Below are positions 30,332-31,565 of a DNA stretch of 64,000 bases, piece by piece. Each line of letters opens with the position of its first letter. The first letter of the stretch is position 1. A program made the position numbers and the translations under genes. Origin of the DNA: Candidatus Acidiferrales bacterium (GTDB lineage Bacteria; Acidobacteriota; Terriglobia; Acidiferrales; UBA7541); the NCBI GenBank assembly GCA_035934015.1, contig DASYYH010000003.1, forward strand, positions 310,001 through 374,000, written 5' to 3'. The notes beneath the pieces were generated by a model. It worked only from the letters and a program-made list of their open reading frames with translations. It ran no database searches and was not told the origin of the DNA.

Positions 30332-30472
30332 ATTCGTGATTCTACTCCGAGGTGGAATGTTGCCCAAGCTGAAGCATGGATGCAAGCGCATCTCTCCGAC
30401 GCCGCAGGCACGAAAGTGGCATAATCGGTGCGAGCGTCGCAGCGCTTGGAACGCGGCGCGGAAGGAGCCACG

Positions 30473-31078
30473 GTGAAACTCAGCCAGGTTTTTTCGAGGC
30501 GGTACAAATTAAACACTGCGGGCGCAGCGGGAATCGCGGCGGTTGGACTTTTTGCGCTTGTGGCGATGGCGACGACGCGAAAAGCGGTTGAGTTCTTGCC
30601 GCTCAATGTTCACGTGGGCGAAAAAGCGCCAGATTTTGTCCTGCCTTCGGCAGGAGGCGGCACGGTCCGGCTGTCGCAGTTCGCGGGGCACAACGTGTTG
30701 CTCAATTTCTACGAAGGCTATTGGTGAACGTACTGCAGCGTCGAACTCGGCGAGTTCGCAAAGCACTATGCGGAATTTCAGAAGCTGAATACGGTCATCA
30801 TTGCTGTGAGCACCGATCCGATGGACAAGGCGCGCTGGGACAAAGACAAGATTCACCTTCCTTTCCCTGTTTTATCGGACCACGATCGCGTGGCGATGAA
30901 TTTGTATAACACCGTTTCGCTCTCGACGTATCCCGCGCCGGACGGCGGCAAATACAATCATGCGACACTCATCTTGATCGATGCGACGGGAACGATCCGG
31001 TGGATTTACCGCAATCCGGATTATCGAATTCGCGCGACCGTGGCGGAAGATTTGGCGGAGATTCGCAAACTTCAATAA
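30473..31078 (+). CDS. Peroxiredoxin-like (AhpC/TSA) protein with in-frame TGA, candidate selenoprotein
   Basis: Membrane-anchored or exported thiol oxidoreductase of the AhpC/TSA fold. The GTG at 30473 has AAGGAG 5 bases before it. Residues 1-37 hold a basic tail and one hydrophobic anchor, then VGEKAPDFVLPSAGGGTVRLSQFAG, which starts the fold. After NFYEGYW the frame meets TGA (30725-30727) and continues TYCSVELGEF, so the site reads U-T-Y-C where relatives have W-C-P-Y-C-x-x-EL. The downstream part (117 codons) is a full C-terminal domain ending at 31078 with no further stop. Three readings are possible: a selenocysteine UxxC protein, a recent nonsense mutation (TGC or TGT to TGA), or a sequencing error. 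The hairpin just after TGA and the absence of other decay favour selenocysteine. A Tat-type cupin gene follows after 34 bases. Confidence 0.8.
30742..30758 (+). promoter_or_regulatory. Candidate bacterial SECIS element
   Basis: A perfect 7-bp stem (CGAACTC/GAGTTCG) closed by the triloop GGC begins 14 bases after the in-frame TGA; the loop begins 22 bases after it. Bacterial SECIS elements lie within the coding region directly after UGA, with an apical loop starting in G at about this distance. The hairpin sits within a conserved coding motif, so it could partly be a side effect of coding. Confidence 0.6.
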
Positions 31079-31112: not shown

Positions 31113-31565
31113 ATGATGAACCGGCGTGAAATGAGCAAACTGCTGGCGCTGGCCGCGGGCGCGCTTGCGACAGGATCGGCAAACACGTTGTCAGAGGAAC
31201 TGCGAACGCACACACAGGGGACAAGCATGCGTTCGAGCGATTCGATTGACGTGCATGATCTAATGAGCGAGCCGCTTGCGCAAATGCAAAATCCGGAAGT
31301 CACAATGCTAACGCTCACTCTCGCACCGGGCGCTACATCACATCCGCATCGCCACACCGGGCCTGTGTTCGCGTACATTCTTGAGGGATCGATATTGAAC
31401 CAAGTCGATCCCGAGCCTGCAAAGACCTACCACCCGGGCGATTTTTTCTATGAGCCACCCATGCACGTTCACCGCCAGTTCAAAAATCTGAGCACTACGG
31501 AAAGCGCAAAGGTCCTGGCGATAGAAGTACGCGAAAAGGATAAAGAGTTTACGATTGACGTATGA
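31113..31565 (+). CDS. Tat-exported cupin-domain protein
   Basis: Small secreted cupin of 150 residues. The N-terminus MMNRREMSKLLALAAGALA carries an RR pair and hydrophobic stretch typical of a Tat signal. The cupin fold shows HPHRHTGP (metal-ligand His triplet) and PGDFFYEPPMHVHRQ as the second motif. The substrate is unknown; metal-bound cupins of this sort are dioxygenases, isomerases or stress-related binding proteins. The ATG at 31113 has GGAGG at 31100-31104. It lies 34 bases after the peroxiredoxin-like gene on the same strand, so the two probably form an envelope oxidative-stress operon. Confidence 0.8.
   Translation: MMNRREMSKLLALAAGALATGSANTLSEELRTHTQGTSMRSSDSIDVHDLMSEPLAQMQNPEVTMLTLTLAPGATSHPHRHTGPVFAYILEGSILNQVDPEPAKTYHPGDFFYEPPMHVHRQFKNLSTTESAKVLAIEVREKDKEFTIDV

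Follow-up and report, generated by a model that had tools for sequence, protein, structure and literature searches.

Does the in-frame TGA in the peroxiredoxin-like frame of this Acidobacteriota contig mark a broken gene, or is it read as selenocysteine (Sec)? The window (C3:310001-374000), that is, the whole 64,000-nt stretch that was analysed, lies in a metagenome-assembled genome (MAG) of 28 contigs and 3.37 Mb that is ~98.6% complete. A standard annotation would end the gene at codon 84, and the active site would be lost. As judged from the sequence evidence below, the gene very probably encodes a selenoprotein in which the UGA at 30725 is read as Sec85. The predicted product most likely acts as a thiol oxidoreductase or peroxidase with a Sec/Cys pair.

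Reading frame and feature coordinates

The frame 30473-31078 is interrupted by a single TGA (30725-30727) and terminated by TAA (31076-31078). Reading through the TGA gives the motif FYEGYW-U-TYC-SVEL, in agreement with the W-U-T-Y-C proposed in an earlier sequence-only reading of the window. The 117 codons which that reading counted as open after the TGA hold if the stop is included; the sense codons number 116. Its assignment of the frame to the AhpC/TSA proteins was borne out by a PF00578 match of the read-through product that spans the TGA (residues 48-177, 101.9 bits, E 3e-29; gathering score 26 bits). GC contents at the three codon positions were similar on both sides (0.62/0.44/0.65 before and 0.53/0.39/0.66 after the TGA). 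U85 and C88 are the sole U/C residues of the protein. A cupin-domain gene starts 35 nt past the stop on the same strand and is possibly co-transcribed. Coordinates are listed in Table 1.

Table 1. Features of the predicted selenoprotein locus, in window positions.
Feature	Position	Strand	Basis
Shine-Dalgarno-like GGAAGGAG, 5 nt upstream of GTG	30460..30467	+	read from sequence
Predicted selenoprotein gene, Prx-like (AhpC/TSA, PF00578), 201 aa with Sec85, GTG start, TAA stop	30473..31078	+	frame and profile match; Sec predicted
N-terminal hydrophobic helix, codons 15-40, predicted membrane anchor	30515..30592	+	AlphaFold2 helix and hydrophobic stretch; topology inferred
Recoded TGA (UGA), predicted selenocysteine 85, position 1 of UxxC	30725..30727	+	frame and homologue alignment
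Cys88 codon; single Cys of the protein, partner of Sec85	30734..30736	+	sequence
Bacterial SECIS-like hairpin CGAACUC-GGC-GAGUUCG, apical loop 21 nt past UGA	30742..30758	+	fold and family covariation
Cupin-domain protein, putative signal sequence, possible operon partner	31114..31565	+	same-strand neighbour downstream

Selenocysteine machinery of the source genome

The earlier reading had seen no selA, selB, selD or selC in the window and expected a Sec system elsewhere. A search of the same genome for selA, selB, selD and tRNA-Sec recovered all four, each located outside the window. The selB gene is full-length (profile 1-578 of 581, 381.8 bits, cut-off 242), selA scored 566.9 bits and selD, which has an in-frame TGA of its own in AGUAAK, scored 357.7 bits. 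The tRNA-Sec scored 65.9 bits and carries the anticodon TCA (UCA as RNA). The reading frames of selA and selB are free of in-frame TGA, and the standard code gives long ORFs for the neighbouring genes in the window. For FdhA (TIGR01553), the commonest bacterial selenoprotein according to the passages of a published survey (PMC5029168), there was no match above cut-off in the source genome.

Homologues and distribution of the TGA form

Homologues aligned at the TGA were found in a range of lineages. A search of 101 related genomes yielded many GYWU[PA][FY]C proteins, each interrupted by a single TGA, together with one Cys form, WCTYC (L032), from the same order. The Cys homologue for which the earlier reading had suggested a search thus exists, and the plain-stop homologues that it had named as refutation were not found: the frames continue past the TGA in many genera and phyla. 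By pattern scan of species genomes, at least 120 stretches matched FYxG[YH]W-TGA-x-[YF]C; the phyla among the listed matches are Acidobacteriota, Pseudomonadota, Gemmatimonadota, Verrucomicrobiota, Chloroflexota, Myxococcota, Rokuibacteriota, Planctomycetota and others.

In 152 related aligned ORFs, column 85 holds TGA in 137, Cys in 1, and T or S in 14; most ORFs without TGA here belong to the ordinary T/SxxC or TxxU peroxiredoxins. Throughout alignment A1 (n = 40), column 85 is TGA or Cys (40/40), a coincidence that, judged from the aligned sequences, is far beyond chance. Invariant columns of the 40 are W84, position 85, C88, D115 and D136. The half of the protein that follows the TGA retains the conserved D115, D136, D170 and W177. 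The protein departs from the alignment at E81, a column with R in 39/40, and at T86, where 37/40 have P. The closest homologues among the relatives fetched are ~33-36% identical over the domain, and the protein forms a long, unplaced branch on the protein tree. Family sequences fall together on this tree with records named as Acidobacteriota and Acidoferrales, which points to an Acidobacteriota source, probably close to Ca. Acidoferrales. The gene had no DNA match in any of the genus's four other genomes. A search of viral contigs yielded no relative of the protein, and plasmids gave distant ResA/Prx matches only.

Within the class, GG[YH]W-TGA-x-[YF]C-xxx-L was present in 35 of 200 genomes; the Cys (TGY) version of the GG[YH]W pattern and a reversed control of the TGA pattern each occurred in 0/200. 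One match (G155) was dropped for an in-frame TAA two codons past the TGC, which leaves 34 carriers. SelB was detected in 146 of the 200 class genomes and in 33 of the 34 genuine TGA carriers (Fisher p = 2e-4, with phylogeny among genomes ignored); the single carrier without it (G212) is only 57% complete.

SECIS-like hairpins

Downstream of the UGA, CGAACUC-GGC-GAGUUCG forms a perfect 7-bp stem that begins 14 nt past the codon. The published bacterial SECIS model calls for a stem of 4-16 bp, a loop of 3-9 nt with G in its first two positions, and a distance of 16-37 nt from the UGA; the hairpin falls within it (7 bp, loop GGC, 21 nt spacing). Its isolated folding energy of -7.0 kcal/mol just misses the published threshold of -7.5, and the surrounding 46-nt fragment reached -14.2. 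Under synonymous shuffles of the gene's own sequence the hairpin alone had P of about 0.10, and the single-sequence fold of the whole fragment after the UGA was insignificant (z -0.27). Since the hairpin alone is not improbable, the claim of a SECIS element rests on family comparison.

For this comparison, 23 homologues were picked by protein motif only. The full 7-bp stem was present at the same position in 18 of them, against 1.4 expected from synonymous-codon shuffling (maximum 5 in 500 shuffles), and all 18 have a G-first loop. In the gap-free stem alignment 96.3% of cells pair, and both-sided changes occur in five of the seven pairs. The covariation score was 0.394, compared with 0.103 for shuffled sequences (0/500 reached the observed value) and no more than 0.115 after sliding. 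The stem studied here has G-C and A-U where C-G and G-C prevail in relatives.

A second hairpin, with a 5-bp stem and mostly an AGUUG/A loop at +16, was found in 65 of the remaining 113 homologues versus 8.3 expected (shuffle maximum 17). Both forms covary (homologue set n = 136), and the 7-bp triloop and the 5-6-bp AGUUR forms each cluster on the protein tree. In the Cys homologue L032, 4/6 positions of the type B and 2/7 of the type A hairpin pair.

Alternative explanations and predicted fold

Three explanations would leave the gene without selenocysteine. A Cys-type Prx-like gene in which TGC or TGT mutated to TGA would be a pseudogene, and the gene is indeed divergent, on a long branch, and private to the source genome within its genus. 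Against this, the codon is regularly TGA throughout the family, the Cys form is missing from the 200 class genomes, the frame has no further lesion, the post-TGA half keeps its conserved residues and its GC3, and the hairpin matches the family SECIS; we regard a nonsense mutation as highly improbable. A sequencing or assembly error, with a true TGC or TGT codon and a Cys-form protein, could be entertained for a draft MAG, but it would have to hit the very codon at which independent assemblies from many phyla carry TGA and which is followed here by a matching hairpin, so that it is scarcely credible. Reading of the UGA as a standard amino acid, or an alternative code (TGA = Trp, etc.), has nothing specific in its favour and is very improbable in view of the complete Sec machinery, the restriction of TGA in this gene to the catalytic Sec/Cys column, selA and selB frames without in-frame TGA, and neighbours with long ORFs under the standard code. 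All three were rejected on the family TGA, the intact frame, the Sec machinery and the hairpin. The selenoprotein interpretation, with its UxxC motif, is supported by the machinery, the TGA-aligned homologues and the covarying SECIS-like hairpin.

A fourth alternative accepts selenocysteine and concerns chemistry: the protein might act mainly as a classical peroxiredoxin, with peroxide attacked at the Prx site, instead of as a UxxC thiol:disulfide oxidoreductase. The fold speaks for it. An AlphaFold2 model (pLDDT 89.3, pTM 0.80) has helices at 15-40 and 86-97, the latter immediately preceded by residue 85, and the best Foldseek matches in the PDB were PrxQ/Bcp proteins, e.g. 3hjp (TM 0.91 by target length). 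On the other side, motif alignment places C88 in the peroxidatic-Cys column of PxxxTxxC and U85 in its Thr column. The classical PxxxT/SxxC motif is replaced in FYEGYWUTYC, with E81 for P and U85 for T. The catalytic Arg of peroxiredoxins is absent from the position expected before the DATG turn in the motif alignment, and position 164 is Ala where relatives mostly have Pro. Because U85 stands in the Thr column and the catalytic Arg is missing, a thioredoxin-like Sec/Cys pair on a peroxiredoxin fold is favoured. We consider a predominantly classical mechanism rather unlikely and a UxxC oxidoreductase mechanism likely. The earlier description as a Sec peroxiredoxin-like protein therefore stands as regards UxxC on a peroxiredoxin fold, but with U85 in the Thr column the protein is not the Sec form of a classical peroxiredoxin.

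Proposed mechanism

In the mechanism that we propose, SelB and tRNA-Sec would insert selenocysteine at the UGA at 30725, directed by the 7-bp GGC-loop hairpin 21 nt downstream. The N-terminal helix may anchor the product in the membrane, a topology suggested by its hydrophobicity, and the peroxiredoxin/thioredoxin-fold domain would then be exposed, with Sec85-x-x-Cys88 as its sole redox pair. The product would most likely be a fast enzyme, either a thiol:disulfide oxidoreductase or a peroxide reductase. Sec85, which is predicted to cap the N-terminus of the active-site helix, would attack the oxidised substrate, Cys88 could resolve Sec85 as an intramolecular selenenylsulfide, and a membrane or periplasmic thiol donor might reduce this bond to complete the putative catalytic cycle.

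Relation to known selenoproteins

Prx-like selenoproteins are not new. In the passages cited here, the Sargasso Sea study of 2005 defined such a protein by a thioredoxin-like UxxC that replaces TxxU (PMC1088965), the GOS study of 2008 listed Prx-like 1 (PF00578, UxxC) and counted 225 Sec and 2,740 Cys sequences (PMC2398784), and later surveys used the name 'Prx-like thiol:disulfide oxidoreductase' (PMC1794560, PMC5029168 and a 2026 review, PMC13188914). As this family is already in the literature, the gene is a new member only, a sequence-divergent one, of the Prx-like PF00578 UxxC family described in 2005-2008, whose published representative is WP_010940744.1. It shares with the family, as portrayed in those passages, the domain, Sec first in UxxC, Cys homologues and a SECIS just downstream; it differs from the members fetched by its low identity and by E81 and T86 in place of a near-invariant R and P.

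Sec-containing peroxiredoxins of the TxxU type (PrxU, NF040737) belong to the same fold superfamily and co-occur in the genome (TPGU in L022, TGGU in L023), but their Sec occupies the peroxidatic position, three residues further on. The protein scored 51.2 bits against the PrxU equivalog NF040737, below its cut-off of 270, and no NCBIfam model exceeded its own cut-off. PrxQ/Bcp proteins such as 3hjp (Bcp4) resemble it in predicted fold; it differs from them in having UxxC, without PxxxTxxC and without a second resolving Cys elsewhere. The cd02970 Prx-like UxxS protein, as described in the table of the 2026 review, is likewise an AhpC/TSA Sec protein with a conserved residue three after the Sec; by that description the fourth residue is Ser, in contrast to Cys here.

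For the phylum, the cited passages credit a few selenoproteins to Acidobacteria in 2006 and three to one Acidobacteria isolate in 2025. The present case points to a wide distribution of UxxC selenoproteins across Acidobacteriota, in line with the detection of SelB in the class. SelB is common there, and the source genome lacks an FdhA match above cut-off.

Passages of the cited papers contain no description of two SECIS architectures in one Prx-like family, which is possibly a new detail, as may be the near-exclusive use of Sec by the Prx-like protein in the class. We hold about evenly balanced the proposal that the class keeps the GYWxxC protein almost only as Sec, that the family has two separate covarying SECIS architectures (the 7-bp G-first triloop at +21 and the 5-6-bp AGUUR form at +16), so that the recoding signal was rebuilt within it, and that this gene represents a divergent triloop lineage. 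If true, the two architectures mean a recoding signal rebuilt within one protein family. Two covarying forms in one family would provide a natural test set for hairpin recognition by SelB, and also for movement of the signal while the protein remains under selection.

Further TGA-containing frames and sel genes

Besides the gene described, 29 other TGA-interrupted UxxC, CxxU or TxxU frames were counted in the window and appeared chance-like on inspection. Elsewhere in the genome, SelD (L018 1501-2445, motif AAGUAAK) is predicted to be a selenoprotein itself; its UGA is followed by a strong SECIS-like hairpin with an 8-bp stem and a 5-nt G-first loop (-9.9 kcal/mol). Two peroxiredoxin paralogues on the minus strand have TGA at the peroxidatic position: L022 (G000:C20:96769-97077, LTPGUSNE) and L023 (G000:C26:27502-27972, FTGGUKQE). 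Under a simple model the hairpins downstream of these TGA codons are weak (-3.8 kcal/mol for L022, +0.7 for L023), and each of the two TGA sites is also seen elsewhere in the genus (L046 and L044). In genome G091, two TxxU peroxiredoxin ORFs with TGA stand in tandem (L051 675-1368 and 1389-1944). Two full-length SelB genes were found in genome G071, and one SelB together with two shorter SelB-like ORFs in G157.
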